A DNA stretch of 33,710 bases from a virus, in IMG/VR virus record IMGVR_UViG_3300044489_000211, positions 1 to 33,710 of that record; one strand, given 5' to 3'. The notes under the pieces are model-generated. The model was not told the DNA's origin, did no database searches, and saw only the letters and a program-made list of their open reading frames with translations. Positions 8,619 through 29,948 of the stretch are shown here, one piece after another. A program made the position numbers and the translations under genes. Position 1 is the stretch's first letter; each line of letters begins with the position of its first letter.

Positions 8619-9062
8619 CTACACCGATCCGCTCATCGTCACCGAGGGCGTCACCTTCACCACGTCGCCGTTGTTCACGGTGACCGCCGACTGGTCGTCG
8701 AAGTTGGACTGATAGACACACGAGCCTGACGTGCAGGCCGTCGCCACAAAGAACCCGTTGACGGTCCCCCAGCCGGCGGTCGCGGTCGGGAAGGTCACCT
8801 GGGAATGGCTGACCTTCCGGCCCGTCCCGGAGGTCGAAGGGGTCCCCCAATTGGAGGCGGACAACCTCTGGCGGTCGTAGGCCCCCGTCCCCGGGGTGGG
8901 CTCGGTGATGTCGGCCATCGTCTGCGTCCGAGAAATCACTGCCGAGGCGGTCTGGGACGTGAACAGCCCGATATAGAGCGAACATGCGCCGTAGGCCGAG
9001 GCCGAGCGCGGGAACACCCCGAGGAAGAAATCGACACCCTGGTCAGGGAAGATGGCCGCCAT
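8619..9062 (-). CDS. Putative tail-fibre-like or decoration protein
   Basis: A 147-residue protein with the segment SLYIGLFTSQ, then DITEPTPGTGAYDRQRL and SNWGTP, an arrangement I have seen in small phage virion proteins that form beta-sandwich appendages. Three cysteines are grouped as GAC, TAC and GSC; the pair ATACTSGSC could form a disulfide. It lies after the HK97 gp10-like neck gene. No motif tells its exact role. Confidence 0.5.
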   Translation of the reverse strand: MAAIFPDQGVDFFLGVFPRSASAYGACSLYIGLFTSQTASAVISRTQTMADITEPTPGTGAYDRQRLSASNWGTPSTSGTGRKVSHSQVTFPTATAGWGTVNGFFVATACTSGSCVYQSNFDDQSAVTVNNGDVVKVTPSVTMSGSV

Positions 9063-9071
9063 AGGTCCCTC

Positions 9072-9605
9072 CTAGCTACCGTACATGGTCGAGTTCAGAA
9101 TCTCCTGGGACCCAGGTACGCCCAGGATCCCGTAAGCGTACAACGTCATTCCGGTCTTCAGGGCCGCCTGGTCGAGGGCCCGGCCGAAGTCTGGACGATC
9201 GATGGTCCGCTCAAGCCAGGGGTGACCAGAGACACCGACCGTCTTGATCTTGTACCACACCGGCCCGGCCGGAAGTCCGCGGTGCTCCGCCCATGCCTTG
9301 ATGGGGGCGAAGGGAACCCGCTCGATAGGACCAGTCCCGGTTTGCAGGATCCAGCCCGCATCCCATCCGCCCTTGTACTTCTTCCGAGGCCCGACCGTCA
9401 GCCTCTCGGGTTCAAGTGTGGCCGAGACGCTGTCCTGCAGCTCGCCCCGGTAGCGGTGCTGCTCCAGCGACTCCCGAATGATCGCCACCAGCTTGGTCCC
9501 CAGATGAGCCAGGTTGGCCTGGACGAACTGCGCCTTCAGGCCCGAGGCCTCGGCGAAGTTCGTCGCCATCTTGGACAGGCCGGACGTATCTACTGCAACT
9601 GACAT
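9072..9605 (-). CDS. HK97 gp10-like head-tail (neck/tail completion) protein
   Basis: A 177-residue protein with the pattern of the HK97 gp10 family: an N-terminal helix pair, then a segment with YRGELQDSVSATLE, RLTVGPRKKYKGGWDAGWILQTGTG and AWAEHRGLP, matching the family's 'G x L x x S x x x x' and 'G x x Y A x x x E x G T' order. These proteins join the head to the tail. The chosen ATG (9605) sits 16 bases inside the end of the upstream glycosyltransferase gene; a longer reading to 9671 would overlap that gene without a ribosome binding site. It has no cysteine. Confidence 0.6.
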   Translation of the reverse strand: MSVAVDTSGLSKMATNFAEASGLKAQFVQANLAHLGTKLVAIIRESLEQHRYRGELQDSVSATLEPERLTVGPRKKYKGGWDAGWILQTGTGPIERVPFAPIKAWAEHRGLPAGPVWYKIKTVGVSGHPWLERTIDRPDFGRALDQAALKTGMTLYAYGILGVPGSQEILNSTMYGS

Positions 9606-10783
9606 AGACGCCTCACCCACTCCACCGCCCGGTCCTTCGCCCCCGGGCCGGCGTTCATCCGGGCCGCCCAATCAGGCAAGGGCTTGGCTCGATCGATGAG
9701 AGCCGGCAGATCCCCTCCCCAGGTTCCCTCCGGGCCATCATCAGGGAACCTTGCTCCTGGGGTCCAGAGCTCGACGACAGGCTTGCCAAGGATGGCCGCC
9801 TCAAGGCCGTAGTTCGAGGCCGAAGGAACTACCACAACGTCAGAGGCTTGTAGCGCCCAGAACAAGCCGTCGCCCTTGTGAACAGCCCCCTTCACCCCGG
9901 CGTCCTTCATCTGGTCGGCATAGTGCTGCTGCCGGCTGGGATGCTCGCCGTAGTGGACGTGAACCATCAGGAACGCGTCGCGAACCTGGCAGGCGGAAAG
10001 AACCTCTGCCCAGCACCGACCCAATTCCGCCGGCCCGTCGCCCCAGGCGGCCGTCATCTGGTGCCAGGACGTCCCGTAGCCGATCACCTCTTTGCCCTCT
10101 GGAACGTGGAAGGCCCTCTTGGCGGCCGCCCGATCAGGAATGGCGTTGTCATAGAGGTAGTCGTACTGCGGCGTCCCAAGGATGGTGATACGCCCGGGGT
10201 CGGCGCCGCACTCGATATACCAGTCCCGCATATACTCCCCGGCCACACCCAGATAGTCGGCGCCTACCTGGCAATGAATGTCCCAGGGAGAGACCCGGAT
10301 GTAGTGGTTGGCGTGGGGGATATGCAGCACAGGGACTCCGATCGACCGGCCGAACTCGGAGAGCAGCCTGCCCTCGGTAGTCTGCTCCTCGTGCAACAGG
10401 ACCCCGGAAATCTTCCTGGCAGACGCAAGGGCCTCGATGGCATGCAGCCGGGCCAATGCACTCGTGACATGGTCATTGAACAGGACCGGCAGCCACCCCA
10501 GGAGCCCCTCGGACGTCAGAGACGGGACGCTGGGGTCGAGCTGGGCGGTTCCCGCTTTGCAAGCCCCCACGATGTCGGAAGTCGCCACCAGGGAGCCCAG
10601 CTTCGCCTCGGACACCATCGGCTCGGTCAACAGTTTCTCCAGGGCGATGACCTGCAGGCCCATGCTCTCGGCCATCTCGGCCGCGCCCGTCTGGAGAAAG
10701 GCAAGGTCGAAGTCCTTCGACAGGGGCTCCCACAGTTCGCGCAGGGTGTGCCCCCCAATGGTCAGCAGAACGGGCTTATCCAT
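9590..10783 (-). CDS. GT-B-fold glycosyltransferase or glycerophosphotransferase-like
   Basis: A 397-residue protein with the layout of GT-B enzymes related to UDP-GlcNAc 2-epimerase and CDP-glycerol glycerophosphotransferases. The first half carries GVPVLHIPHANHY and YLGVAGEYMRDWY, the second half VIGYGTSWHQMTAAW, then ALQASDVVVVPSASNYGLEA and GKPVVEL, the usual donor-binding end of the family. It would transfer an activated sugar or polyol phosphate. The start taken is the ATG at 10783, eight bases inside the previous gene; an ATG 15 bases earlier is also open. It is embedded in the head-tail operon together with another glycosyltransferase, which is unusual. The donor is not visible; a CMP-sugar from the 21-31 kb module is a hypothesis. 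Confidence 0.65.
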   Translation of the reverse strand: MDKPVLLTIGGHTLRELWEPLSKDFDLAFLQTGAAEMAESMGLQVIALEKLLTEPMVSEAKLGSLVATSDIVGACKAGTAQLDPSVPSLTSEGLLGWLPVLFNDHVTSALARLHAIEALASARKISGVLLHEEQTTEGRLLSEFGRSIGVPVLHIPHANHYIRVSPWDIHCQVGADYLGVAGEYMRDWYIECGADPGRITILGTPQYDYLYDNAIPDRAAAKRAFHVPEGKEVIGYGTSWHQMTAAWGDGPAELGRCWAEVLSACQVRDAFLMVHVHYGEHPSRQQHYADQMKDAGVKGAVHKGDGLFWALQASDVVVVPSASNYGLEAAILGKPVVELWTPGARFPDDGPEGTWGGDLPALIDRAKPLPDWAARMNAGPGAKDRAVEWVRRLCQLQ

Positions 10784-10964
10784 TCTGGGCCTCGGCATAG
10801 CGCCGGTTGATGGCGTCGAGCATGACGTACTCGATAACCCTCACGATGCTCACTCCTCGCCGTTCAAGCCGTCCGGCCGCCCATTCCCTGGCGATCCGGG
10901 TTGCCTTCTCGGTCCACGGCGCCGCCCCCTCTTCGAAGGGGTCATGCCTCTGCGTCTCTTCCAT
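10776..10964 (-). CDS. Small hypothetical protein between two glycosyltransferases
   Basis: A 62-residue, charged, mostly helical protein (EKATRIAREWAAGRLERRGVSIVRVIEYVMLDAINRRYAEA). I do not recognise it. It is flanked tightly by the two glycosyltransferase genes, overlapping the downstream one by eight bases. A small adaptor for one of them is possible but not supported by any motif. Confidence 0.45.
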   Translation of the reverse strand: MEETQRHDPFEEGAAPWTEKATRIAREWAAGRLERRGVSIVRVIEYVMLDAINRRYAEAQNG

Positions 10965-10985
10965 CGTCGCCTCCGCTCGACCTTC

Positions 10986-12251
10986 TCATTCCACATAGAT
11001 GGTTTCTGGCAGCCTCGCATTGGCCCTGCGGGACTGCTGCTCGGATGCAATACGGGCGTACAGGGCGATCAGCCGCTCGGCGTTGGCCTCCATCGTGAAC
11101 CGCTTCAGGGCCCATGCCTTCCGCCCCTGAGCCTCGGCCTTGTAGTGCTCCAGGCCCCGGATCCGCTCCGCCAAAGCGTCGTACCAGGCGTCCTCGCTCG
11201 ATGGGACGAGCTTCCCATACCGGCCCAACTCACGATAGGGCGCCCCGTCCGAGGCCACGAACGGAACTCCGCAGCAGACGTACTCGACGAGTTTCAGCCA
11301 GGACCTGCGCTCGTCGTAGGACACCTCCCGGTCAGGCGCCGACGTGAAGGTCGACGTCGGACGGAGATCAAGCGGGGCGATCCCGATGTCGAAGGTCGAC
11401 ACCACCAGGGGCCAATGGTCGGCCGCCACACCCCCATGACGCAGGAGCTGCTTCTCGGGCAGCTGGTTCAACAGGTAGTCCAGTCTCGTCTCGCTGCCGC
11501 AGAACTTGAAGAACACCTGGGGGAAGTCCGCCAGGATACGCTTCAGCGCCGGCAGGACCTGGGAGTAGACAAAGCCATCGATGTGCGAGATGGACCCGCC
11601 CCAGCCGATGCAGATTTGCCCCTCGGTCCCCAATCGCTTCCGGGTCCGCATGACAGGAGGGCTGGCGTCCGGCTCGTAGTCCACCAGGACGTCCGCCTCG
11701 CCCAGGGGCTTGGGCACGATCCCCTCATACAGCTTCAGGGCGGGGTAGTTCGGCCAGTAGTACCCAGGGACGACATCCGCCCAATCGGCCAGAATCTCAT
11801 GCGACGGCGAAATCAGGCCGTCGGCATGCCTCAAGCCCTCGGTCATCCGCTCGATCGGGGGAGGGTCAAACTGGAACTGATTGTCGATCCAGAACGGGTG
11901 GGCCGGGTTGGATGGCGGGATCCCAGGGTAGTGGTCGTCCAGGTCGACCAGGACGGTCTTCCCAACCGCCCGCCAGTATTCCATCGCGTCGTAGACTTCG
12001 GGGAAGATGACGTCCCGCTGAAACAGGACGATGTCACCCGCCCCTATCTTCCGCTGGACAAGGGGGTGGTGCAGGGACAGGGAAGTTCGCAGGTTGTAGA
12101 GGTTGGCGGTGTGGGGGAACCCCTTGGGGTTCGCCTCATGGACCGCATTGATGGCATTGGCCAGCAGGTGGCAACGCCACTCAGAGCAGTTCCATTCCTG
12201 CGGCGAGTCGGCGTACAGGTAGACAACGTGCATACCTCCAAATGCGTTCAT
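10986..12251 (-). CDS. Glycosyltransferase family 4-like (GT-B)
   Basis: A 421-residue GT-B enzyme. The N-terminal half contains GDIVLFQRDVIFPEVYDAMEYW and VLVDLDDHYPGIPPSN, then a strand-rich stretch; the C-terminal half has ICIGWGGSISHIDGF, STFDIGIAPL, and RRSWLKLVEYVCCGVPFVASDGAPY, the typical donor-site end of GT4 enzymes (E in LKxxEY, G-x-P-x-x-x-S). It would transfer a nucleotide-activated sugar. The ATG at 12251 follows GGAGAGG; MHVV at 12233 is an alternative start. It lies inside the virion operon, between the connector-like gene and neck genes, so its acceptor may be a virion protein. Acceptor and donor are not readable from sequence. Confidence 0.75.
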   Translation of the reverse strand: MNAFGGMHVVYLYADSPQEWNCSEWRCHLLANAINAVHEANPKGFPHTANLYNLRTSLSLHHPLVQRKIGAGDIVLFQRDVIFPEVYDAMEYWRAVGKTVLVDLDDHYPGIPPSNPAHPFWIDNQFQFDPPPIERMTEGLRHADGLISPSHEILADWADVVPGYYWPNYPALKLYEGIVPKPLGEADVLVDYEPDASPPVMRTRKRLGTEGQICIGWGGSISHIDGFVYSQVLPALKRILADFPQVFFKFCGSETRLDYLLNQLPEKQLLRHGGVAADHWPLVVSTFDIGIAPLDLRPTSTFTSAPDREVSYDERRSWLKLVEYVCCGVPFVASDGAPYRELGRYGKLVPSSEDAWYDALAERIRGLEHYKAEAQGRKAWALKRFTMEANAERLIALYARIASEQQSRRANARLPETIYVE

Positions 12252-12263
12252 GGCCTCTCCAGG

Positions 12264-12779
12264 TCATTGCGATTGGTCATCGGCCGGGTTCGAACCGAAG
12301 TCCCCGTCGAACACGCCCCCAAAGAACCTGGGAGCGACTCGGTCGGTGTCGTCCTCGACCGTCTCCTTGTCGGATTCGCTGATGCCGCCACCGTAGAACT
12401 TGCTCTCGGCCACACCAATTCCGGCCCGGGACAGGTCCATCAGGGCCAGCTCCTTCAGCCCGTCGTCGAATGCCTTCTTGAACGCCTCAGCCCTGGTGCG
12501 CTCACCGCTCGACGTCCGGGGGGATCCCCGGGCCAGCTCCGCCCTGTACGCGGCGTAGGTCGACTCAAGGTCGGCCACGAACCCAGCCACCCCTCCCGTA
12601 ACCGGCGTGGAGTAGCCCAGGGCGCCAAGGCGGGCTTCGATGAGCGCGCAACCCGACGACATGAAGCCGACGAGTTGCGCGCTCGAAGGGCGAATGGCAG
12701 TATCCAGCCCATCGAAGGACGATGCGCCGTTGAGCAGGTTCGGGATGAGGGCCGCCACCTGCGCGCAGGTCGAGTACAT
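12264..12779 (-). CDS. Head-tail connector-like protein
   Basis: A 171-residue protein whose first 75 residues form short helices ending in ALIEARLGALGYSTPVTG, the pattern of gp6-like and DUF1320-like head-tail adaptors (helix, then G-Y-x-x-P). The rest is an acidic, flexible tail. Cysteines occur in STC and SGC. The start overlaps the previous stop as TGATG. Position after the small head proteins fits an adaptor on the portal, but this is by pattern, not by a confirmed family match. Confidence 0.5.
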   Translation of the reverse strand: MYSTCAQVAALIPNLLNGASSFDGLDTAIRPSSAQLVGFMSSGCALIEARLGALGYSTPVTGGVAGFVADLESTYAAYRAELARGSPRTSSGERTRAEAFKKAFDDGLKELALMDLSRAGIGVAESKFYGGGISESDKETVEDDTDRVAPRFFGGVFDGDFGSNPADDQSQ

Positions 12780-13054
12780 CAGCGCATCCAGACGAACGCG
12801 CTGCCGGTGGTGATGTTCCCGACGTAGACCCCGCAGGCCGACACGAAGGGCCCAATCATCGGCACGGTCGTCCCCGCCAGGGCGTTCAGCGTGATGATCG
12901 AGGACGCCCCGCCAGTCGATCCGCTCGAACCCCAGAACGTGGCCGATGCGGCAGCCGCGCCGGCCACCAGGCCGAACCAGACTGGTCGCCGCTCGCTTCC
13001 CACCACGCAGCCCGCAGCCGTATAGGTGGATGCTCCGCCAGGAAGTTGGCTCAT
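12779..13054 (-). CDS. Small head-operon protein, unknown
   Basis: A 91-residue Gly/Ala/Ser-rich protein with a hydrophobic patch (VWFGLVAGAAAASATFW, about residues 25-41) that might be a buried helix or a weak membrane segment. It ends in a beta-like region with VSACGVYVGN. I do not recognise it. It lies ten bases after the preceding gene and overlaps the connector-like gene by one base. A head decoration or minor capsid role is a guess from position. Confidence 0.45.
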   Translation of the reverse strand: MSQLPGGASTYTAAGCVVGSERRPVWFGLVAGAAAASATFWGSSGSTGGASSIITLNALAGTTVPMIGPFVSACGVYVGNITTGSAFVWMR

Positions 13055-13064
13055 GCCAGCCTCC

Positions 13065-13424
13065 CTACGTCTTGACGGCCAGATACTGGATGACCGTCGT
13101 GGCCCCGGCTGCAGCCGCGCCGCCCGAGCCAGCGATGTATGCGAAGATCATCGACGCCACGCCCGCGCCAGGGCAGGTTGACACCAGGGCGATGCAGGGC
13201 GAGAATGTTCCTCGCGGGAACGCCTGCAGCACGTGGCTGGCCGTCAGGCCGGTGATGGAAACCTCCACCGTGGCCTGCGAGCCGGCGGTGTTGCCGGTGA
13301 AGGCCGGGCTGGTGAGCGACACCGAGCCGGCCAGGATGTTCTTCATGAACGTATCGGTCGAGGCCGAGCCGACGGACAAGCCGCCGGTCGCCAGGACCTT
13401 CAAACGAATCTTTCCACCAGGCAT
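13065..13424 (-). CDS. Small head-operon protein, probably structural
   Basis: A 119-residue protein with repeated Thr/Ser/Gly/Val strands (LTSPAFTGNTAGSQATVEVSI) and two cysteines (SPC, STC). No family is evident to me. It follows the major capsid gene after a 107-base spacer holding inverted repeats, and has an AGGAGGG motif before its ATG. A minor capsid or decoration protein is plausible. Confidence 0.45.
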   Translation of the reverse strand: MPGGKIRLKVLATGGLSVGSASTDTFMKNILAGSVSLTSPAFTGNTAGSQATVEVSITGLTASHVLQAFPRGTFSPCIALVSTCPGAGVASMIFAYIAGSGGAAAAGATTVIQYLAVKT

Positions 13425-13531
13425 GATGCCCTCCTAGTTCGAGTCCCCCCAGACGGCCCAGCACCCGCTGGGGGGAGATAGGGCCGGGGTGCATTGCTGG
13501 GTGCTTTGGCCCCCGGCCCTCGGCATTCAGA
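13425..13531 (-). terminator. Hairpin-bearing spacer after the major capsid gene
   Basis: The 107-base spacer holds two inverted repeats. Ten-base perfect arms lie at 13480-13489 (AGGGCCGGGG) and 13511-13520 around a 21-base loop, and six-base arms lie at 13457-13462 and 13467-13472 around a four-base loop. No T run follows on the minus strand, so this may be a weak terminator, an attenuator, or an RNA element that keeps capsid mRNA more abundant than the distal genes. Confidence 0.4.
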
Positions 13532-14455
13532 CTACGCAGCCGACTTGACGAGGTAGCCCGCGTCCGCGGCCGTGATGACGGCGTCCCAGCTCATGCGAGC
13601 CTCGACCACGTCCTGGTGCTCCTGGTCCTCACGGTAGCGGTTGACTTCCCGGCTCATGTACTGGAACACGTAGCCGGCCGCCGGCACGTCGACGGCGGGG
13701 GTCGCCGGGACGTAGCCGAGGAACAGGTGGTTGCCACCGATCATCGAGAGCGATGACGTCCCGCCCTCCTGGATGGTGTCGTAGATGGCGCTGGCGATCA
13801 GGAACTTCTCGACCCCGATCAGCTGGGCAACCGCCTGCGACGTCGCCACCGCAGGATTGCCCGGAGCGCCGCCGAACTTGATGCGGTCGACGATGTCCGG
13901 GTGGTTGCGCATGTAGCGCCAGAGACCGCGCCCGATCACCGCCACGTTGGGCTCGCGCCCGATCGCTGCGGCGACGGTGTAGACGCCCGTCTCGATGTCA
14001 CCCAGGGGATCGGACGCGTCCGAGCTCCACAGGGTGCCAGGGGTGGCCGAGCTCGACCAGCCCGTCCCGAACACCGCGCCAAGCACGTCAATCTCGACCG
14101 CCTTCAGGAGCTGGTCGGTGACGTATTCGGTGGCCGTGATCATCGGGCGCAGGGGCTCGTCGGCCATCTTCTGGACCTCGTCCGGGACACCCTTGGACAG
14201 CGCCTGCTCCACGCAGACGTAGGGCGTCTTGGACAGGGTGTACTCCGCCCGGCGGGCGCGCGTGCCGGGGGCCCGGATCCCCACCTCGTTCCGCATCCAG
14301 TCGGCCTTGGTGTAGATCCAGTAGTAGTTCGTCGCCTTCGGGACGCCCACGATCGGGAAGATCTGGTCCGCGATGTAGCCGCCGTTCCGGTAGGCGATGG
14401 AGACGTTGGTCAGGCCAACGTCGATGTGGACCTGTCGTTCAGTAGGGCTAGGCAT
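13532..14455 (-). CDS. Major capsid protein
   Basis: A 307-residue protein with the order expected of HK97-fold capsid subunits that lack a large N-terminal scaffold: SIAYRNGGYIADQIFPIVGVPKATNYYWIY near the start, an acidic helical middle (TEYVTDQLLKAVEIDVLGAVF), RGLWRYMRNHPDIVDRIKFG and LIASAIYDTI, then the C-terminal LGYVPA...DVPAAGYVFQYMSREVNRYRE. The ATG follows a near-perfect GAGGAGGTGA ribosome binding site, the strongest class in the window, as expected for the most abundant virion protein. The neighbours (protease-scaffold and decoration protein upstream) agree. Confidence 0.85.
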   Translation of the reverse strand: MPSPTERQVHIDVGLTNVSIAYRNGGYIADQIFPIVGVPKATNYYWIYTKADWMRNEVGIRAPGTRARRAEYTLSKTPYVCVEQALSKGVPDEVQKMADEPLRPMITATEYVTDQLLKAVEIDVLGAVFGTGWSSSATPGTLWSSDASDPLGDIETGVYTVAAAIGREPNVAVIGRGLWRYMRNHPDIVDRIKFGGAPGNPAVATSQAVAQLIGVEKFLIASAIYDTIQEGGTSSLSMIGGNHLFLGYVPATPAVDVPAAGYVFQYMSREVNRYREDQEHQDVVEARMSWDAVITAADAGYLVKSAA

Positions 14456-14466
14456 CAGTCACCTCC

Positions 14467-14895
14467 TCAGCTCGTTCCGAGGGTCGCGCCGCAGGCCGAC
14501 ACGATGCCCAGGATCACCACGTTGCCGAGGAAGGAACCATCAGCCGTGGTCTGCCGCGCGTCGAAATAGCGGGCGAACGGGTTGTCGACACCGATCGTCT
14601 CGATCGGCTCCAGAGCACCATCCGAGGCCGCCTTCAGGAACTTGCCGTTCTTGAGGTAGCAGCTGTTCACACGAACCTTGGCCTTGGTCGGTCCGAAGAT
14701 CACAACCTCCGCAGCCTGGCCCGCGCTCGGATCGTTCACCAGGACCCCGGCCGGGATCGGGTTGCAGGCCGAAGTCACAGCGCCGACATACCCACCGGTC
14801 GAGGCCGGGGCGACCAGCTGCCACTGCTTCGTGGTGAGGTCAGTGTCGGCGGTGAACGGAACGGGCTTGACTCCAAAATCCCATGCGCTTGCCAT
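14467..14895 (-). CDS. Head decoration protein (DUF2190-like)
   Basis: A 142-residue protein between protease-scaffold and major capsid genes, the standard place for a capsid cement or decoration protein. The sequence shows the short beta-barrel pattern of that group: VAPASTGGYVGAVTSAC, then PAGVLVNDPSAGQAAEVVIFGPTKAKV (the GVL-x-N-D-P-x-x-G element). The C-terminal third has a strand pair ending VVILGIVSACG. Three cysteines lie in SAC, NSC and SAC. The ATG has AGGAGGTGA upstream. It probably stabilises the capsid after expansion. Confidence 0.7.
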   Translation of the reverse strand: MASAWDFGVKPVPFTADTDLTTKQWQLVAPASTGGYVGAVTSACNPIPAGVLVNDPSAGQAAEVVIFGPTKAKVRVNSCYLKNGKFLKAASDGALEPIETIGVDNPFARYFDARQTTADGSFLGNVVILGIVSACGATLGTS

Positions 14896-14906
14896 CCGTC
14901 ACCTCC

Positions 14907-15449
14907 TCACGCCAACTCGGGATGCAGCTTGCTGGCCTTCGCCAGAGCATCCGAGTAGGACAGTTTCTCGCTGGCGACCAGGCCATCGGCCAGTTCGTGC
15001 AAAGGGGCGCCATCGTTGGATTGCGACGTCCCCGCCTCGGCCATGACGGCCTTGGCTGCGGCGTCGGCGCCGGCGAGCACCTTGCGGAGCCACTCGGCGA
15101 CTTCGGGCTTCAGGCCCTCCAGCTCGGCCATGCCCTCAGCGAACTCCTCAGGCTGGATCGCCAGGGCCTTGAATGCCTCGGCCTCCACCTTCAGCGCCGC
15201 CTTGCGGGCAGCCAGCTTCTCGGCCTTCATGTCGGCCTCGAGCTTGTCAGCCCGAGCCTTCTCGGCCGCCAGGGCGTCGGTCGACGCCTTCAACTTGGCC
15301 TCGAACTCCTCTTTCTCCATGTCCACCTCCGCCTTTTCGGCCGGGATAGGTTCGGGTGCCGGTTCCGGCTCAGGCACCGGCTCGTCACCCTTCAAGCCGA
15401 GCAGCTGACGCAGCCCGGTCCGTAGCGACTCAATCAAGATCGTATCCAT
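14907..15449 (-). CDS. Nested in-frame scaffold protein (internal start)
   Basis: Inside the protease-scaffold gene an ATG at 15449 (residue 210, MDTILIES) has AGGAG six bases upstream, and another at 15320 (residue 253, MEKEEF) has GGAGG five bases upstream. Both are in frame and would give the helical scaffold region without the protease (180 or 137 residues). Mu gene Z and lambda Nu3 are known nested scaffolds of this kind. That these starts are used here is inference; the entry uses the longer version. Confidence 0.5.
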   Translation of the reverse strand: MDTILIESLRTGLRQLLGLKGDEPVPEPEPAPEPIPAEKAEVDMEKEEFEAKLKASTDALAAEKARADKLEADMKAEKLAARKAALKVEAEAFKALAIQPEEFAEGMAELEGLKPEVAEWLRKVLAGADAAAKAVMAEAGTSQSNDGAPLHELADGLVASEKLSYSDALAKASKLHPELA

Positions 15450-16076
15450 GCTCTGCTCCTTCGCCGAGAATAGAGCCACGTGCTGGTGCCCAAAGAACGG
15501 GGTCGGGGTGAGCGCCAGTCCGACAAGGACATTGTCGTGCTCCGACCCGGTCTCCGGGTCTTGGTAACGGGCCCCGTCGTTGAGAGTCCACACCACCTCA
15601 GCACTCACCCCGTCGTACCCGTCCTCGCCGATCGCCTTCTCGCCCTTCGGCGTCAGCTCCAGCTCGGTTGCGTAGAGCCCCGGACCGCTAGAGCCATCGG
15701 GCAGGTAGGCCACCTGCCGGATGTTGCCGACCTTGCCGGCGTCTTCCTTGTGGTCCAGGTTGATGCCAACGCGAAAGCGTGGCAGGCCGGCCCGGAAGTT
15801 CCGCTCCATCTCCTCGAGCCGCTCCCGCGTGATGATCAGCTTCCGACCGCCCCGGTGCCACGTCCCTTCGGGCAGCAGGCGCACAGGGCCCTTGATACAA
15901 GGGGCTGCGAAGTCGTCGAAGGCGATGCGCTCGGAATGCATCGCAGGCTCGCTGGCATAGAGAGCTGCGAGCTGCTTCTTCGCCTCGGCCTCGGTGTCGT
16001 GGGTCCCGGCCACCGAGCCGTCAGCGTCCTTGACCACCTTGAACTTGGAGCCAGCCTTCACGATGTGCCAGGGCAT
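14907..16076 (-). CDS. Prohead protease with C-terminal scaffold domain (Mu gpI-like)
   Basis: A 389-residue protein. Residues about 1-205 resemble Mu gpI-type capsid maturation proteases: AFDDFAAPCIKGPVRLLPEGTW, then RFRVGINLDHKEDAGKVGNI with a conserved-looking histidine (H in LDHK) and later GVSAEVVWTLND and VGLALTPTPFF, typical of the protease core. Residues about 253-389 are a charged, Ala/Glu/Lys-rich coiled coil that fits a scaffold. Between them is a Pro/Glu linker (PVPEPEPAPEPIPAEK). The protease cleaves the scaffold and capsid during maturation. The start chosen is the ATG at 16076; an in-frame extension to 16157 crosses the terminator hairpin. Two internal start sites could make scaffold alone. 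Confidence 0.78.
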   Translation of the reverse strand: MPWHIVKAGSKFKVVKDADGSVAGTHDTEAEAKKQLAALYASEPAMHSERIAFDDFAAPCIKGPVRLLPEGTWHRGGRKLIITRERLEEMERNFRAGLPRFRVGINLDHKEDAGKVGNIRQVAYLPDGSSGPGLYATELELTPKGEKAIGEDGYDGVSAEVVWTLNDGARYQDPETGSEHDNVLVGLALTPTPFFGHQHVALFSAKEQSMDTILIESLRTGLRQLLGLKGDEPVPEPEPAPEPIPAEKAEVDMEKEEFEAKLKASTDALAAEKARADKLEADMKAEKLAARKAALKVEAEAFKALAIQPEEFAEGMAELEGLKPEVAEWLRKVLAGADAAAKAVMAEAGTSQSNDGAPLHELADGLVASEKLSYSDALAKASKLHPELA

Positions 16077-16091
16077 GGGACCTCGAAAGAG

Positions 16092-16122
16092 AAGGCCGCA
16101 GGCGAGATTCGCCTGCGGCCTT
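16092..16122 (-). terminator. Strong hairpin, likely intrinsic terminator
   Basis: Perfect 14-base arms AAGGCCGCAGGCGA and TCGCCTGCGGCCTT flank a three-base loop (GAT on the plus strand). On the minus strand it is followed by CTCTTTC, a short pyrimidine tract. It lies between the portal stop and the protease start and may end part of the packaging transcript or shape translation of the protease gene. Confidence 0.65.
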
Positions 16123-16149
16123 GAACGAAGTCGTGGGACGTGCCCACCC

Positions 16150-16177
16150 GCACACATATCTTACCACATGTTGTCAA
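16150..16177 (-). promoter_or_regulatory. Possible promoter-like element in portal-protease spacer
   Basis: On the minus strand TTGACA (16177-16172) is followed by a locally AT-rich stretch ACATGTGGTAAGATATGTG. The only Pribnow-like hexamers lie 8-13 bases from TTGACA, too close for a standard sigma-70 promoter, so this is weak. The hairpin 50 bases downstream would make any transcript from here a short RNA unless it reads through. Confidence 0.2.
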
Positions 16178-16189
16178 GGGCCCCCAGCC

Positions 16190-18454
16190 CTACGGCCTGG
16201 CAAGGGAGCCGGATCCATCGTCAATCTCCAGCCAGCACCGGCAGTTCCCCTCGCACTCCATGTCCCCTGGAAGTCGACCGCCGGTCGCCTCGAGCAGTTC
16301 GTCCATGCTGGCATACTCGCCTTCCGCATCGGGGCACTCGCTGCAATGGTTCGCCGAGTCGTCCAGCACCCAGGCCACCGCGCCGCCACCCTCCCGCTCG
16401 GCGTCCCGGGCAGCCCAGCCGGCGCCGTCCTGGATCGCCGTCCACATCTGCCCAGCGTAGGACTCCACCCGGGCCTGCAGGGCGGCCATGTAGCCGACAA
16501 TCCCTATAGCCCCAGCCGCCTTGACATCAGGATCCGACAGGGCTATCAGCAGGCGCCGCCGGGTGTCCGGGATGAGGGACGTGTCCAGGTACTCCTCGTT
16601 CTCGGCCAGGCGCCGGGCCAGGGCCATCAGGGAATCGGCCGATGGGGTTCGCCCGCCGAGCCCCAACTGCGAACCCTTGATGATGTTCTCCCGGCCGGCC
16701 GCAGCCAGGGCGGTCGCCAGGACAGACAGGGCTTCGTCGATCGTGTCCTCGGAACTCTCCGGGTCCTCCTCGATGTCGTCGGCGAGCTGGTTCAGCCACT
16801 CGCCGTAGATGAGCCCGAGCTGGGCCTGGTAGTTATTGGTCTCCCTTTCCCACGTGCGACGGCGCGCCGCGCCGCTGCCACGAAACCGGGACGCCGCGAA
16901 GGCTTCGTCTTCGGGCGTCTCACCTCCTTCGGCGACGTCAAGGGCGGGGTCGTTGTGACCCCCGTCCTTCGCCGGCTGTTCCTTGGGCCTCTGCAGGATC
17001 CCACCGGGGCCGAAGGGCACAGGCGGGGCAGGCTTCTTTCGGATGGTGCCCTTCTCCAGCTCGGGCAACTCCAGGAGCTGGCGCACTGTCCGCTCCAGGC
17101 CGGCGTCAATCTGAACGACATCAGCCTTCACGGCCTCGGCCACAGCACCGACCAGGGCAGCCACGTCCTGCTGGCCCAGCGGGGCGAACACAATCCTGGG
17201 ATAGTCGGTCAGGGCGCCGAAGGCCCCAGCGTTCAGCTTGAACAGCCGCTCGACCCCGAACCGGTTCAGGGTGTCAGCGATGAGGTCCAGCCAGCCGCTG
17301 ACCGCCTGGGCAAAGAAGTCCGTGGCGCGAACAGCCAGGGCCTGCGTCCCCCGCTCGGACAGCCCGAAGAAGATAAACTGCGCCAGAAGGACCTGGGCAA
17401 TCTGCTGGTTGTAGCGGGTGATGGCCTCGCCGAAGTCGATCATCCCCCGAGAGCCCGGCGACACCAGCTCGAACAGGGCGCCCTGCCCATCGGACGTCAT
17501 CTTGGGATAGGGGATGACGATGCCCATCTGCTCGTCAGTCCTGGTGTTCCGCACGATGTCCTGGGCCTTCGAGAAATCGCTGTTTTCCCCCTGGAGCTTG
17601 GTCCCCCGGCCGAGATACATGACAGGCATGCCCGTCCCCATGCGCTCGGCGGCGATCCCCTCAATTTCGCTGAAGTTCTTCGAGAAGTACCAGGGCAGGT
17701 AGGCCCCCCGGAGCGCCGACTTGCCCTGCGGGTTGTTCTTCAGGGCCGACGTCCGGTAGAGCAGCATCTTCTCGATCGGGATGAACACCGACTTTCCACC
17801 GGCCGGAGGGGTCTGGTTCATGCCCTGGACCCCGCCGTTCTCGTCGATCACCCACTCGGATCCCGGGGTCAGTGTGTCGGGCGATCGGTAGCCGAACTTC
17901 CGCCAGCCGATCCGCCCGTCGTCATACTTGCTCGCTGCATCCCGGTCGGGCCCGAGCCGCCGCTTGTAGACAATCTCAAACGGGGCGAACCCATACCAGG
18001 CCATCGTGATCGCCTGGCCCATGTGCTCGGTCCAGGAATGGCTCATGTCGTCAAGGCAGGACTCCAGGAACTCGGACGCCTCGACATCCTGGGGCTCCTC
18101 GCTGGCTGGCTCGACGTCGACCTTCGCCGACTTCGCCAGCATCTCGACCGCGAAGGTGGCCGCAGAAACCACCGGATGGTCCATCATCCGCCGGACAAGC
18201 TTGACCATCCTTGGAAGACTGTTCCAGTCGGCCAGGTAGTCCTCGGCGATCGCACCGCCGAACCGGTTGAGCCCGGTCACGCCCAGCTCGGTGTAGACCA
18301 CCCCCTTCGGGGCAGCCATGTTCTCAGCCTTCAGGGCCCGGGACACCGTGGCAGTCGACACCCCCAGGGACCGGGCCACCTCCGCCGGCGCAGCGCCCTC
18401 CGACACCAGGCGCCGGACAGTCTCGTAGTCAGTCGTTCGCTTTCGACCCGCCAT
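16190..18454 (-). CDS. Portal protein fused to N-terminal HTH and C-terminal MuF-like domain
   Basis: A 754-residue protein in three parts. Residues 8-45 form a helix-turn-helix of the resolvase/Hin type (DYETVRRLVSEGAAPAEVARSLGVSTATVSRAL). Residues about 47-470 match the Mu gp29-like (DUF935) portal: DWNSLPRMVKLVRRMMDHPVVSAA, FGFAPFEIVYK-like segment at 'YGFAPFEIVYKRR', and NNPQGKSALRGAYLPWYFSKNF. The last 200 residues end in HCSECPD (C704, C707) and NCRCWLE (C738, C740), the usual end of MuF-type minor head proteins. The portal is the dodecameric DNA gate; MuF proteins sit inside the head. The ATG at 18454 has AGGAGG with good spacing, so the HTH is probably translated. MAAPKGVV at 18319 would be the start of a normal portal. 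Confidence 0.85.
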   Translation of the reverse strand: MAGRKRTTDYETVRRLVSEGAAPAEVARSLGVSTATVSRALKAENMAAPKGVVYTELGVTGLNRFGGAIAEDYLADWNSLPRMVKLVRRMMDHPVVSAATFAVEMLAKSAKVDVEPASEEPQDVEASEFLESCLDDMSHSWTEHMGQAITMAWYGFAPFEIVYKRRLGPDRDAASKYDDGRIGWRKFGYRSPDTLTPGSEWVIDENGGVQGMNQTPPAGGKSVFIPIEKMLLYRTSALKNNPQGKSALRGAYLPWYFSKNFSEIEGIAAERMGTGMPVMYLGRGTKLQGENSDFSKAQDIVRNTRTDEQMGIVIPYPKMTSDGQGALFELVSPGSRGMIDFGEAITRYNQQIAQVLLAQFIFFGLSERGTQALAVRATDFFAQAVSGWLDLIADTLNRFGVERLFKLNAGAFGALTDYPRIVFAPLGQQDVAALVGAVAEAVKADVVQIDAGLERTVRQLLELPELEKGTIRKKPAPPVPFGPGGILQRPKEQPAKDGGHNDPALDVAEGGETPEDEAFAASRFRGSGAARRRTWERETNNYQAQLGLIYGEWLNQLADDIEEDPESSEDTIDEALSVLATALAAAGRENIIKGSQLGLGGRTPSADSLMALARRLAENEEYLDTSLIPDTRRRLLIALSDPDVKAAGAIGIVGYMAALQARVESYAGQMWTAIQDGAGWAARDAEREGGGAVAWVLDDSANHCSECPDAEGEYASMDELLEATGGRLPGDMECEGNCRCWLEIDDGSGSLARP

Positions 18455-18779
18455 AGAACGCCTCCTTCAGCTCACGCATCAGCTGCGCCTGATCACCGAC
18501 CAGGTCAGCCGCAAAGTACTGCAAGTCCTCAACCGACTTCATCAGGGCGGCCAGGGACGACTGCTGGAACGCCCCCACCTTCATCTGGGCATTCAGGACG
18601 GTGAGAGCCTCCCGGGCCCGCCCGACCACCAGCTCCCCGGCCCGCATGCGGGTCTGCACCCGCTCACAGGCGGTCTCAAGGTCCAGGCCGGCCGGAGGCC
18701 CGACCGTCTTGGAACGTCTTCCGCCGCTAGCCGCCAGGCCGCAGAGGAACCCTACCAGGAGCCCCCACAGTAGGTCCAC
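18429..18779 (-). CDS. Small single-pass membrane protein, unknown
   Basis: A 116-residue protein starting at GTG (18779), two bases beyond the terminase stop. Residues 2-18 (DLLWGLLVGFLCGLAAS) form one hydrophobic segment followed by basic residues, then a helical, charged cytoplasmic-like part (residues about 30-116). A longer reading to 19085 would lie inside the terminase gene and is rejected. It overlaps the portal gene by 26 bases. Small membrane proteins between terminase and portal are uncommon; a holin or spanin-like role is possible but neither the size of the tail nor the position is typical. Confidence 0.55.
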   Translation of the reverse strand: MDLLWGLLVGFLCGLAASGGRRSKTVGPPAGLDLETACERVQTRMRAGELVVGRAREALTVLNAQMKVGAFQQSSLAALMKSVEDLQYFAADLVGDQAQLMRELKEAFYGGSKAND

Positions 18780-18780
18780 G

Positions 18781-20400
18781 TCAGCCCCTCCTGAACCGGC
18801 TCTCGCCGCCCGGGCCCCAGGTGGCAGGGCCAGAGTCACCAGGCTTGCCGGGCTCCTTGGGCTCGAGCCAACGACTCGCCTGGGCCAGGACGGCCGGCGG
18901 AACGTTGGCGCCGCCTCCGATGAGAGCCATGACAAAGGCATCCCCGCAGTCGGTCGACCGCCCGATCCGTTCCTGGATGTCGTCCTTGGACTCGATCTGG
19001 ATGCCTTGCGGGGTCGCCTTCCAGCGGGGCGCCACCAGGTCAGCCCGCAGCTCGGGGTCCGGCGGCAGGGCCAGCCGGAGCCCAAACGCTGGGTCCAGGG
19101 CCTCCCGGGCTCGCCACCACAGCTCCGCCCGTAGGTTCCTGAACCGCAGGTTCCCCGATCGGTCAGCAGCCCCGGACGACTCAGCGAAGTTCACAGGCTT
19201 GGCGTCCACCCCGGCCGCCCGCAGGTGGTCATACACCGAACCCCCAACACCGATCACGTCGACGTGAACGGGAATCTGGTAGCCCATCTCCCGAGCGATC
19301 CTGGCCAGGACCGAGGGACCGTCGGGCGTCTCCTTGCCGGGAGTCTTGTTAGGCATCGAGAACCACGGACCTACCCGGGTCATCGCCACCGTCATGTCGT
19401 CACCGCCCCGGGCCACGTCCAGGCCAACGCACAGCAGGGGAGCGCCCGTCGGAGGATCGGACGTCCACCGAGCCATCGCAGCCTCCACCCACTCGGCAGG
19501 GATGACCTGCCAGGGGTCGGCCACCAGCCCGATCGTGAAGTCTCCGTAGAGCAGCTGCGATCGCAGGGGCTCGGGCAGGCCCTGCAGCTGCTGGGGATAG
19601 CCGGTCGTGGCGTAGTAGGGGTTGTCCCAGACGCTGGCCGGAATGAAGGTCCGCGACTTGGGCTCGATGAGCTCGTCCTTCCAGACGAACGCACCGGGCC
19701 CGACCTCCCGCTCGTCCCCGTCGATCCGGGCATACCACCGGAGCTCGCCAGGCTCGGCAGGGTTGGTATGCTGCGGGTCGAGCCAGGCGCCCCACCTCTT
19801 GACCACCCATTGCCCCTCGGCCGTGGTAGGGGGGTTGCCAGTCGCCACCACCCGCGTCCGCTGCCCAGGGATCGGGGTCCGCAGCCAGGCGTTCAGGAAC
19901 ACATACTGCGACTCCAGGAAGTCGCCCACCTCATCGTAGCCCTTCAGGTCATGGGCCCGCCCCTTGTACTTCTGGACGTCCTGGGCATTGTGGACCGCCC
20001 CGAATTCCAGCATGCGGTCGCCTGGAAGGTCGCGCCAGATGTGAAGGTTCTCGTTGAACCGCCCCCGCTCGCCGATGAGCTCGGCCGCCGACGAAATCAG
20101 GTCGCGCAGCTGGGGGAACTCCCGCCGATAGATGATGCTCCGCATGTGGGCCGTGAGAGCCAGGCCCAGCAGGAGCCACGACTTGCCACCGCCGGCCTGA
20201 CCGCCAAAGAACAGCTCGTCAGCCTCGCAATGGAAAGCCCGCTCCTGGGGGGATCCCGGCATCGGTGTCCACATCAGCGTAGCGTCAGCCCTCGCCCGAG
20301 CCAGGCGCCTCAACTTCTCCGCCTTCGCTGACAGATATGCCTGCTCCGGCAAATAGCTCTGTAGCAAGGTCCCTCCCGAGCTCGTCCTTGACGACGTCAT
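18781..20400 (-). CDS. terL: Terminase large subunit
   Basis: A 539-residue DNA-packaging motor with both expected domains. The ATPase part has Walker A GGQAGGGKS (66-74), Walker B LKGYDEVGDF (DE at 156-157) and the coupling motif ATGNPP (186-191). The nuclease part has CVGLDVARGGDD (D328), HVDVIGVG (D381) and STDCGDAFVMAL (D484, D487), the RNase H-like metal site. It translocates DNA into the prohead and cuts the concatemer. The start at 20400 overlaps the small subunit by 116 bases and has only a weak ribosome binding site; a TTG at codon 17 or the ATG at 20274 are alternatives. The downstream small membrane protein follows immediately. Confidence 0.93.
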   Translation of the reverse strand: MTSSRTSSGGTLLQSYLPEQAYLSAKAEKLRRLARARADATLMWTPMPGSPQERAFHCEADELFFGGQAGGGKSWLLLGLALTAHMRSIIYRREFPQLRDLISSAAELIGERGRFNENLHIWRDLPGDRMLEFGAVHNAQDVQKYKGRAHDLKGYDEVGDFLESQYVFLNAWLRTPIPGQRTRVVATGNPPTTAEGQWVVKRWGAWLDPQHTNPAEPGELRWYARIDGDEREVGPGAFVWKDELIEPKSRTFIPASVWDNPYYATTGYPQQLQGLPEPLRSQLLYGDFTIGLVADPWQVIPAEWVEAAMARWTSDPPTGAPLLCVGLDVARGGDDMTVAMTRVGPWFSMPNKTPGKETPDGPSVLARIAREMGYQIPVHVDVIGVGGSVYDHLRAAGVDAKPVNFAESSGAADRSGNLRFRNLRAELWWRAREALDPAFGLRLALPPDPELRADLVAPRWKATPQGIQIESKDDIQERIGRSTDCGDAFVMALIGGGANVPPAVLAQASRWLEPKEPGKPGDSGPATWGPGGESRFRRG

Positions 20401-20749
20401 ACGTCAGGGTCCCCTCTCGAATGAGCGCAATAAGGTCGTCGCGCCACGACTTGAGCACCGTCGGCAGCTTGCCCTCTGTCCTGTCCAGGACCTCCTTCAG
20501 GATCGCCCCGGTTGGCTCGGACATCAGCGACATCCAGAGCCTCAATGCCACCATGCCTTCGATGCAGAGATCGTTCCCGCCGGCCGCCAACTCAGTCGAC
20601 CATGCCTTGCACATCTTGGCCGCCTCGACCGGCGTCATCGCACCGAACTTCCGCAACCAACCCGTGACACGGTTGACGCGCTTGCCAGTCCTGTTCCTTC
20701 GTGGGTCGAAACCGGGCTTGAATGGAACCAGACCAGAACCCCTCGGCAT
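20285..20749 (-). CDS. Terminase small subunit-like protein
   Basis: A 154-residue, helix-rich protein. It begins with a basic, disordered SGLVPFKPGFDPRRNRTGKR segment of the type seen at the start of many phage small terminase proteins (DUF5681-like), followed by helices (MTPVEAAKMCKAWSTELAAGGN, LKEVLDRTEGKLP) and an acidic tail. The small subunit recognises the packaging site and regulates the large subunit. The ATG follows GAGGAG. It opens the packaging-virion operon just downstream of the terminator at 20779. The assignment rests on this N-terminal signature and its place directly upstream of the large subunit. Confidence 0.65.
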   Translation of the reverse strand: MPRGSGLVPFKPGFDPRRNRTGKRVNRVTGWLRKFGAMTPVEAAKMCKAWSTELAAGGNDLCIEGMVALRLWMSLMSEPTGAILKEVLDRTEGKLPTVLKSWRDDLIALIREGTLTYDVVKDELGRDLATELFAGAGISVSEGGEVEAPGSGEG

Positions 20750-20778
20750 GTCGCTCCTCGCAGAGAGAATACAGCAAA

Positions 20779-20801
20779 GCCGGCCCGCAGGACGGGCCGG
20801 C
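20779..20801 (-). terminator. Terminator-like hairpin ending the sugar module
   Basis: Perfect nine-base arms GCCGGCCCG and CGGGCCGGC flank a five-base loop. On the minus strand the stem is followed by TTTGCTGTATT, a weak T-rich tail. It lies in the 105-base spacer between the cytidylyltransferase stop and the small terminase. A TATGAT hexamer at 20842-20847 could be a -10 element for the late operon, but no convincing -35 accompanies it. Confidence 0.55.
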
Positions 20802-20854
20802 CATCACGTCGTCGGCGCAGCTAGCGCGCCCCGGCAGCTACATCATACACCGTA

Positions 20855-21835
20855 TTACGCAATGGGGCGACGAGACTCGAAGGTCTCCTTATGCCCACAC
20901 TTGGGGCAGCGCAGGATGAGCCGGCCCCGGACCAGGTCCATCGACACCAGGGGCGTGGCGCACCTCGAGCACTTGACCTTCTTGTGGGACGTCTGAATCT
21001 CCCCGGAGATCGCCGCCAGGTCAGAGTAGACCACCGGACGGCCGGAGTAGTCCCGCTCCCATTGCTCAATCTCGGCCCGGGTGTAGGACGTGTAGGTCCC
21101 GGTCCGCTCCCGCACCGAGCCATTGACGGCCGCCACGTCCTGGTGCCGGTCCAGGAAGTTCACCACCCATTGCAGCGGGGGCTCGTGGGGCTTGGCCCAG
21201 GCATCCCAGACCAGGCGCACCAGCTCCAGGTCCTTCTCGGTGTCCACCTCGAGCCGGTAGGGACGGTAGGACCAATGGGGCAGGTCGACCAGGCCGTAGG
21301 TGAACCGGTCGAGGTGCCGGCGGATCCACATGCCGGGATGCTGCCGCTCCTCGCCAGAGGACAGGCTCGAGGTCCAGCACCATGTCCGGTAGGACCAGGG
21401 GGAAAGCCCGGCGCCGTAGACAGGGTCCGAACCGAACTGCAGGGGCAGCAGGAAGTCCCAGCCGTTGGTCTCGATCGCAGCCGCCGCCTGGTCGATGTGG
21501 TGCCAGTCCACGAAGGGCTGATCACCCAGGGCCCGAAGGACAGGCATCTGACCGTAGCGCCCCACCAGCTTGTCCACCGCCCGGGCCAGCTCCGCCGTGG
21601 TGTCGTCCCCCTGCATCCCACGGGTCGACCATATGCCGAACTCGCTGCAGGCCCGGTCAATCTCCGCGTTCGCAGGATCCCAGGGGGAGGTCACCAGGAC
21701 GTCAGCCACGCACTTGGACTGCTTCAGGCGCCGCACGATGTGGACGAACATGGGTACCCCGGCGATCGGCGCCAGGACCTTGCCGGGCAACCGTTCGGAC
21801 GTCGCCCGGACCCCGAGAACACACAGGACAGGCAT
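20855..21835 (-). CDS. SpsF-like cytidylyltransferase with C-terminal zinc ribbon
   Basis: A 326-residue protein. Residues about 1-240 are a nucleotidyltransferase of the CMP-sugar synthetase/SpsF group: VLGVRATSERLPGKVL (the R-x-x-S-x-R-L-P-G-K nucleotide loop at 10-20), then VLRALGDQPFVDWHHID with the metal-binding acidic residues (GDQP), and a C-terminal VDTEKDLELV. It should activate an acidic sugar with CTP. The last 40 residues hold CSRC (289-292) and CPKC (310-313), a zinc ribbon not usual in this family and of the type found on DNA- or RNA-related proteins. The start overlaps the previous stop as TGATG. It is the last gene of the sugar operon. The sugar substrate cannot be read from sequence. 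Confidence 0.78.
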   Translation of the reverse strand: MPVLCVLGVRATSERLPGKVLAPIAGVPMFVHIVRRLKQSKCVADVLVTSPWDPANAEIDRACSEFGIWSTRGMQGDDTTAELARAVDKLVGRYGQMPVLRALGDQPFVDWHHIDQAAAAIETNGWDFLLPLQFGSDPVYGAGLSPWSYRTWCWTSSLSSGEERQHPGMWIRRHLDRFTYGLVDLPHWSYRPYRLEVDTEKDLELVRLVWDAWAKPHEPPLQWVVNFLDRHQDVAAVNGSVRERTGTYTSYTRAEIEQWERDYSGRPVVYSDLAAISGEIQTSHKKVKCSRCATPLVSMDLVRGRLILRCPKCGHKETFESRRPIA

Positions 21836-22698
21836 CAGGGCCTCCGCACGAACAGGACCAGGTCCCGGGCGCCGTGATTGGCGTACCACAGCATCCGCCG
21901 AGCCAGATCCAGCCTGGACAGGGAACTCTCGGTAGCACGGATGAGCGAATGCAGGTGTCCACCCAGGCCGGGGTGCTTCAGGTAGTCCACCGTGGGCAGG
22001 AACCGGTGCATGGGCGCCGTCCCCAGCACCAGCCCGGGAGCCTCAAAGGCGCAGCGCCGCAGCAGGGCTGTGATGGACTGCAGCGTCCAGTAGTTGACGT
22101 GGGTCGGGTGGACGAAAGGCGGCCCCCCCCTCAGGGGCTCGTTGGGGATCGCCAGCAGCAGGATCCCACCCGGCCGCAGAGCTCCCCAGGCCCGGCGCAG
22201 CAGCGTGACCGGGTCGGGCATGTGCTCCAGGAGCCAGAGCATGGAGATGACATCGAACTCCCGATGGCCCAGGATGAAGTCGTCGATCCCCCGGTGGGCC
22301 AGGATGAGCTGTCCCACCCTCTGCCGGCTCCATTCGAACGTATGGCGACTGGCCTCTACGGAAGGTTCCACCGCCCACGCCTCCCAGCCGGCGCCAGCCA
22401 GGACCGCCGCGAACAGGCCGTGCCCAGAGCCGACGTCTACCACCCGTCGGCGATCGGCGGGGAGGTTGGTCCGCAGGATGGCCTCATAGAGCCCGTAGAC
22501 GTGCCGGCGCCACCCCTCCTCGGCCAGGATGAGCTCGTAGGCCCCGACCTTCTCGTCCTGCCAGAACTTCTTGGCGTAGTAGTCGGCCAGGAGCCCGGGG
22601 TCAGGAACGGGGTCGAGATGGACGAACCGACAATCCCGACAGTAGCGGGCAGTCGCCCCCAACCCCTCCCAGGACAGGCCCTCGATGAATCTATGCAT
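21835..22698 (-). CDS. SAM-dependent methyltransferase (Methyltransf_23-like)
   Basis: A 287-residue class I methyltransferase. VVDVGSGHGLFAAVLAG (86-102) is the SAM-binding motif I; VEPSVEA follows as motif II and the later LWLLEHMPDP and LRPGGILLLAIPN give motifs IV-V. The N-terminus has ARYCRDCRFVHLDPVPDP, a CxxC element common in the Methyltransf_23 subgroup found in capsule and O-antigen clusters. It probably methylates a sugar or sugar nucleotide. It overlaps the gene upstream by eight bases and the cytidylyltransferase by one base. Confidence 0.78.
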   Translation of the reverse strand: MHRFIEGLSWEGLGATARYCRDCRFVHLDPVPDPGLLADYYAKKFWQDEKVGAYELILAEEGWRRHVYGLYEAILRTNLPADRRRVVDVGSGHGLFAAVLAGAGWEAWAVEPSVEASRHTFEWSRQRVGQLILAHRGIDDFILGHREFDVISMLWLLEHMPDPVTLLRRAWGALRPGGILLLAIPNEPLRGGPPFVHPTHVNYWTLQSITALLRRCAFEAPGLVLGTAPMHRFLPTVDYLKHPGLGGHLHSLIRATESSLSRLDLARRMLWYANHGARDLVLFVRRP

Positions 22699-29920: not shown

Positions 29921-29948
29921 CGGTGCCTCCTGTCTTGCAATATAGCTA

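Follow-up and report, generated by a model that had tools for sequence, protein, structure and literature searches.

Glycosylated virion proteins have been reported for the mycobacteriophages Che8, Corndog and Myrna (PMC12363180), where phage-encoded transferases glycosylate capsid and tail-tube proteins (PMC12363180, PMC11256854) and where Che8 gp110 and Corndog gp38 are essential capsid transferases (PMC12363180). Giant viruses encode both the sugars and the transferases for their virion glycans (PMC9614988). In flagellin glycosylation by Maf and FlmG, nonulosonic acid is transferred in the cytoplasm to a self-assembling surface protein before assembly (PMC4065374, PMC7591256), while the sps genes of Bacillus subtilis provide a compact legionaminic acid pathway needed for the spore crust, an outer protein layer, for which the cytidine monophosphate (CMP)-legionaminic acid transferase was not identified as SpsA or SpsB (PMC7439481). 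The present analysis concerns two glycosyltransferase (GT) genes, termed GT4-like and GTB, that lie among the virion genes of an uncultivated tailed phage, IMG/VR virus record IMGVR_UViG_3300044489_000211; the whole stretch analysed (33,710 bases, with all examined genes on the minus strand) is referred to as the window.

The two enzymes are probably core morphogenesis genes, which glycosylate one or more virion proteins with a CMP-activated nonulosonic acid made by the phage itself, with the acceptor, the donor and the order of steps as we infer them below. The original prediction for this DNA had described virion glycosylation in phages as rarely reported, which the work on Che8, Corndog and Myrna has overtaken (PMC12363180). 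The phenomenon is already known, therefore, and what would appear to be new here is the use of other enzymes together with a donor pathway of the phage's own; no report of nonulosonate-decorated tailed phages was found in searches of open-access literature. Like the window, the Corndogvirus Familton has GTs in its head operon, where an O-methyltransferase and two GTs stand between the portal and the capsid protease, but Corndog-type head-operon transferases belong to families unrelated to the window pair. Che8 gp108–110 are of the GT2 and GT25 types, also unlike the window pair; no significant match was obtained in four comparisons (the GT4-like family against gp108, gp109 and gp110, and GTB against gp108), and the stretch of Che8 shown has no annotated nonulosonate genes, whereas the window does have such genes. 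The flagellin systems and the sps pathway are functional analogues, but the latter is cellular and the former both cellular and flagellar. Giant viruses offer self-encoded virion glycosylation of the kind proposed here, but with eukaryotic hosts and in an unrelated lineage.

The transferase pair in the morphogenesis block

Judged from sequence, the morphogenesis block includes the enzyme pair as a core element throughout a clade of uncultivated tailed phages. The genes concerned were as follows (ORF, open reading frame):

10986–12251, minus strand: GT4-like glycosyltransferase, 421 residues (conserved family A6)
10776–10964, minus strand: small conserved ORF, 62 residues, possible partner of the enzymes
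9590–10798, minus strand: GTB, second GT-B-fold transferase, 402 residues, of the TagF/KpsC/2-epimerase superfamily (fold Z of about 20)
12264–12779, minus strand: connector-like gene, directly upstream of the GT4-like gene
9072–9671, minus strand: neck-like gene, directly downstream of GTB (PHROG 5, tail completion or Neck1)
13532–14455, minus strand: major capsid protein, the clade marker (PHROG 1005)

Relatives were gathered with the enzyme, the capsid and the connector as seeds, and all loci were then scanned with hidden Markov models (HMMs). The 229 viral loci were merged to 129 distinct sequences by shared identical 100-mers, leaving out L010, which is the window. A strong (cognate) connector was defined as one of at least 140 bits; every other counted connector match scored below 60 bits. 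This showed that GT4 was present in all 32 distinct sequences with a cognate connector and GTB in 29 of them, the three contigs without GTB ending within 2.4 kb of the connector. Sequences with a distant connector only (<60 bits) carried neither enzyme (0/43), and 29 of these 43 have at least 4 kb downstream. Of 35 close-capsid sequences, 25 reach the connector, and GT4 was found in each of the 25. Because GT4 had been the main route to the loci from which the connector and capsid HMMs were built, these classes are not wholly independent of it, nor are relatives independent samples; four contigs from the capsid and connector scans that lie outside the GT4-seeded matches (L081, L099/L155, L104/L168 and L166) all carry GT4. 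A GTB-seeded scan returned 31 loci, all on contigs that also have GT4 except for one 4-kb fragment (L268). Neither enzyme was found in any of 55 arbitrary viral loci. In other settings, GT4 relatives occurred without GTB in nine large-phage sequences and together with it in two (L049, L052), none of them with the connector. The cultured distant capsid relatives RDJL Phi 1 and Ottawa (32–33% identity) have no GT annotated in the stretch shown.

Exceptions to the gene order were limited to one tail gene placed ahead of GT4 in L033/L034 and L053, and to L081 (5736–10612; the same contig as L253), where the GT4-GTB-neck-tail block is inverted relative to the connector and tail genes. Around this block, which may be a real inversion or an assembly artefact, there were no long inverted repeats of note.

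Between the window and L001, dN/dS was 0.15 for both enzymes, 0.21 for the small ORF and 0.24 for the capsid. Over 19 phages, GT4 and GTB distances tracked capsid distances (Mantel r = 0.86 and 0.88; 0 of 5000 permutations as high). With purifying selection acting on both enzymes and their divergence following that of the capsid, the pair does not resemble swapped-in accessory genes. The small ORF showed the same sequence pattern, judged by eye, in 21 of the 27 gaps between GT4 and GTB, with L023 added by HMM; it was absent in L025, L030, L032, L035 and L040. Our guess is that its product is a partner or targeting subunit of the enzymes.

In transcription order, the window begins with ParB-like, helix-turn-helix and HNH genes, followed by a sugar module (30997 down to 20855), terminase, portal, protease and capsid; small genes come next, and then the connector-like gene, GT4-like gene, small ORF, GTB, neck-like gene and tail genes with the tape measure. 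The block was interpreted as a head-tail operon because the matches for major capsid (E = 8e-73), portal (E = 1e-65) and terminase (E = 5e-30) are clear. It had been predicted that two transferases flanking a 62-residue protein were embedded in such an operon between a connector-like and a neck gene, closely spaced or overlapping, and this arrangement was recovered: 12 nucleotides separate the connector-like from the GT4-like gene and 21 separate the latter from the small ORF, which overlaps GTB by 23, while GTB overlaps the neck-like gene by 82 nucleotides as listed, or by 16 if the neck-like gene begins at an internal ATG (9605). The neighbours' positions stand, but their labels rest mainly on position and are weaker than had been implied, the connector-like gene matching no PHROG or Pfam family significantly (best PHROG E = 0.057) and the neck-like gene having only a match of E = 0.014. 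Promoter- and terminator-like sites were not commoner in 8900–21900 than in shuffled sequence.

The main rival to virion glycosylation is a late-infection role in which the enzymes use the same nonulosonate donor on a surface polymer of the host, and so exclude superinfection or keep progeny off debris; their place in the head operon would then reflect late timing only. Relatives of the GT4-like enzyme do occur in cellular genomes, where a second GT4-type gene lies in tandem and phage genes are missing, and enzymes close to the pair in fold, PimA and TagF among them, have lipids and wall polymers as their substrates. However, co-inheritance with the capsid at a fixed position is not expected of swapped accessory genes, and the window contains no candidate for a membrane protein, a flippase-like protein or a polyprenyl-phosphate transferase. 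No strong membrane segment (Kyte-Doolittle) was found in any window protein, and there is therefore no sign of a lipid-linked surface system. Host-surface modification was considered rather unlikely.

The cellular GT4-like relatives came predominantly (19 of 21 loci) from records titled Chloroflexi, Anaerolineae or Anaerolinea-type taxa. These genes (L057–L076) mostly stand beside a larger GT4-type gene and are a possible cellular source of the phage gene. The capsid profile had no match in 20 genomes with GT4 relatives (nearly all Chloroflexi), in a search without a positive control, and 6 matches of 66–189 bits in 400 Chloroflexi genomes. Since these six score like the distant clade, the host was not assigned to Chloroflexi.

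Affinities of the two enzymes

The AlphaFold model of the GT4-like enzyme (mean pLDDT 79.9) has a GT-B fold and is closest to GT4-type enzymes; it belongs to this fold over the whole protein, with Z = 27.5 over 320 aligned residues to a GT-B mannosyltransferase. The window protein scored below the Pfam cut-off for PF13692 (Glyco_trans_1_4; 18.5 bits against 27), and 13 of 27 family members match that model at E ≤ 0.01. A larger GT4 profile had no match in the PDB at E ≤ 1, while a tblastn search with the window enzymes against 50,697 phage records produced no match at 1e-5. A divergent GT4-like query (L004) yielded nothing more than five weak matches to GTs, in phages of Streptomyces and Arthrobacter.

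GTB, whose model also has a GT-B fold (mean pLDDT 82.3), had been labelled glycerophosphotransferase-like, and is probably better read as a TagF/KpsC-like transferase with CMP as the leaving group. The window protein scored 18.4 bits for PF04464, below the cut-off of 22.1, and this model matches 19 of 27 family members at E ≤ 0.01. The top sequence-profile matches were to the TagF/TarL/Cps3D group (E = 8.6e-5, for TagF, and 2e-4), polyol-phosphate transferases of the same fold (Z = 18). These enzymes polymerise cytidine diphosphate (CDP)-polyols on wall or capsule chains, unlike GTB, which has a single domain and is encoded in a virion operon. The donors are CDP-polyols for TagF and TarL and CMP-Kdo (Kdo, 3-deoxy-D-manno-octulosonic acid) for KpsC/S, and CMP is released in every case; the likeness of GTB to these enzymes would therefore fit a CMP-nonulosonate donor. 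An HP motif and a later Ser motif are expected in GT-B transferases that use CMP-nonulosonate or CMP-Kdo. In the GTB family, H282 is invariant, with Pro as the next residue in 25 of 27 members, and S328 is likewise invariant, with Asn next to it in 26 of 27. The regions around these residues align weakly to the matching regions of KpsS and KpsC; the alignment to NeuS reached only E = 0.03. NeuS (GT38) and NeuE of Escherichia coli UTI89 were rejected as GTB relatives, there being no convincing match.

Alternatively, GTB could be a UDP-GlcNAc (uridine diphosphate N-acetylglucosamine) 2-epimerase of the NeuC kind that feeds the sugar module, with the GT4-like enzyme alone transferring the sugar. 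The fold ranking is headed by UDP-GlcNAc 2-epimerases and NeuC (Z = 20.8, which places GTB within the epimerase GT-B fold), followed by TarL (Z = 18.7) and TagF (Z = 18.3); the GTB family aligns to E. coli WecB by hhalign (E = 4.6e-8), and 8 of 27 members match the epimerase model PF02350 at E ≤ 0.01. NeuC of UTI89 had no match to GTB by sequence, although NeuC structures match its fold. However, PF04464 matches more members than PF02350, TagF is the best sequence-profile match, and WecB E117 and H213, which we take to be, in role and numbering, the residues essential for epimerisation, fall on P161 and S244 of the GTB family, so that the epimerase residues are replaced. An epimerase function was considered distinctly improbable.

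The sugar module and its recurrence

The proposed donor pathway for virion glycosylation is encoded upstream of the head genes (SDR, short-chain dehydrogenase/reductase):

30014–30997, minus strand: nucleotide-sugar 4,6-dehydratase-like gene (PF01370, PF16363; TIGR01181 260 bits against a cut-off of 365)
29240–29998, minus strand: NeuB-type nonulosonate synthase, short form (PF03102, 62 bits over a cut-off of 22.1)
28102–29265, minus strand: class-III aminotransferase (PF00202, over cut-off)
25910–28486, minus strand: SDR, PseG-like and Gfo/Idh-like genes (PF00106/PF01370, PF22725; PseG TIGR03590 only at E = 0.005)
24483–26048, minus strand: thiamine-diphosphate enzyme in three ORFs, C, M and N domains (PF02775, PF02776, PF00205)
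23419–24507, minus strand: ATP-grasp ligase (PF02655, over cut-off)
21835–23422, minus strand: two methyltransferase-like genes (PF13489 for 21835–22698; 22691–23422 with no Pfam match at 0.01 and a weak methyltransferase match)
20855–21889, minus strand: cytidylyltransferase, CMP-sugar activation (PF02348, 51.2 bits over a cut-off of 22.6)

A NeuB synthase (PF03102) and a cytidylyltransferase (PF02348), both over their cut-offs, identify the module as a nonulosonic acid cluster. Sugar equivalog models fell far below cut-off for the module proteins, so that the assignment goes no further than the nonulosonic class.

The module recurs upstream of the head genes in relatives, and the predicted pairing of the transferases with a donor pathway at 21–31 kb is supported by its distribution. 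NeuB (PF03102) was found in 11 of 40 clade records, a set that includes many short fragments; among the 13 clade records of at least 37 kb it was present in 10, compared with 3 of 14 records of at least 36.9 kb from the distant (sister) clade without the enzyme pair and 1 of 21 arbitrary viral records of 37–120 kb; the 37 kb cut was chosen after the NeuB results had been seen, and apparent near-duplicate clade records (with identical HMM scores) were not collapsed. The 40 clade records derive from 50 loci, leaving out L044, L046–L052 and L054–L056 (without the structural block) and L012 (on the contig of L007), and adding L006 and L007 from the capsid scan. The cytidylyltransferase model matched 13 of the 40, 12 of them over cut-off, in a count that covered the clade records only.

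When upstream stretches were compared with the window proteins, nearly the whole module was seen in the same order in L228 (G001). NeuB, aminotransferase, methyltransferase, ATP-grasp and cytidylyltransferase were repeated in L229, L230/L231 and L232, to which L229 and L230 add the Gfo/Idh and PseG-like genes. Part of the module was present in L235, L236, L237, L239, L240 and L241; L240 lies on a record that stops short of the connector, and hence of any GT pair. Three further records (L233, L234, L238 and L242) showed little or no module by the window proteins, yet PF03102 matches all three. Module and transferase pair are thus strongly linked among the nearer members of the clade and more loosely among the far ones.

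Other features were noted in and around these genes. The split thiamine-diphosphate enzyme is of the acetolactate-synthase type, and its N and C domains are also separate ORFs in L228. L235 (8013–11004) carries a sulfotransferase (PF13469) and a KduI-like protein within its sugar module, hinting at sulfated or otherwise varied sugars, while L003 (177–3335) has, upstream of its virion genes, two genes whose translations look, by eye, like a radical SAM protein and a family-2 glycosyltransferase. In the sister clade, L171, L198 and L222 have NeuB near head genes without the GT pair, where another transferase family possibly fills the same role. Elsewhere in the window, the Mu-like portal protein (16190–18454) has a helix-turn-helix-like stretch at its N terminus, and 2–712 has a weak GH25 (lysozyme-like) match below cut-off, a possible endolysin.

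A proposed route to a glycosylated virion

Under the virion glycosylation proposed here, the 4,6-dehydratase, the aminotransferase and modifying enzymes would lead to a NeuB-type condensation with phosphoenolpyruvate, and the resulting nonulosonic sugar would be activated with cytidine triphosphate. Transfer would take place in the cytoplasm, either ahead of assembly or in the course of it. A virion protein would be primed with a first sugar by the soluble GT4-like enzyme, after which the TagF/KpsC-like GTB would attach the nonulosonic acid and release CMP, perhaps assisted by the small protein as partner or targeting subunit. More tentatively, the clade as a whole may make its own nonulosonic sugar and attach it to virion proteins through a dedicated pair of GT4-like enzyme and CMP-nonulosonate transferase with a small partner; because, within the assembly block, the pair is inherited with the capsid gene, the sugar may be obligatory for assembly and not an optional coat. 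The original suggestion that virion proteins are glycosylated gains from the clade-wide linkage, the co-divergence with the capsid, the recurring donor module and the Corndog-type precedent, while the class of acceptor stays presumptive.

Several observations weigh against this proposal. The EX7E motif is canonical for GT4 enzymes and is not kept in the first enzyme's family, for which reason the name 'GT4-like' was used: E323 is invariant, but the residue eight positions earlier is a nearly invariant R315. The window's own GTB has His-Tyr at the site where 25 of 27 members have His-Pro. NeuB occurs in 5 of 40 sister-clade records in spite of the missing pair, and two clade records of at least 37 kb (G019 and G026, perhaps fragments) have neither NeuB nor cytidylyltransferase. 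The Ser/Thr content of capsid proteins was the same in clades with and without the pair; for all head-tail proteins there was only a slight difference, which was not used as support.

Two further features of the virion proteins were recorded. Some virion proteins of the clade have a raised cysteine content (portal, 0.012 against 0.004), and between its capsid and connector genes L007 (10830–13439) encodes a candidate acceptor, a repetitive protein of 869 residues in which Ser, Thr and Ala are abundant.

Glycosylation of modified bases in the phage DNA is highly unlikely: YuA-type phages, some of them with modified thymines, do count among the distant capsid relatives, but no thymidylate-synthase-type base-modification gene was found in 24 records (where the positive control worked), a Tet/JBP search was also empty (its control gave no signal), and the enzymes are placed in the head-tail block, even if phage GTs acting on DNA are known (PMC12619734).

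For recombinant tests of glycosylation, the block offers the two transferases together with their putative small partner. If the proposed virion glycosylation is correct, the sugar class would be nonulosonic acid, which flagellin needs for filament assembly. Some bacterial viruses would then be self-sufficient from nucleotide sugar to glycosylated particle, as giant viruses are, and virion glycosylation would be a heritable structural trait of a phage lineage.

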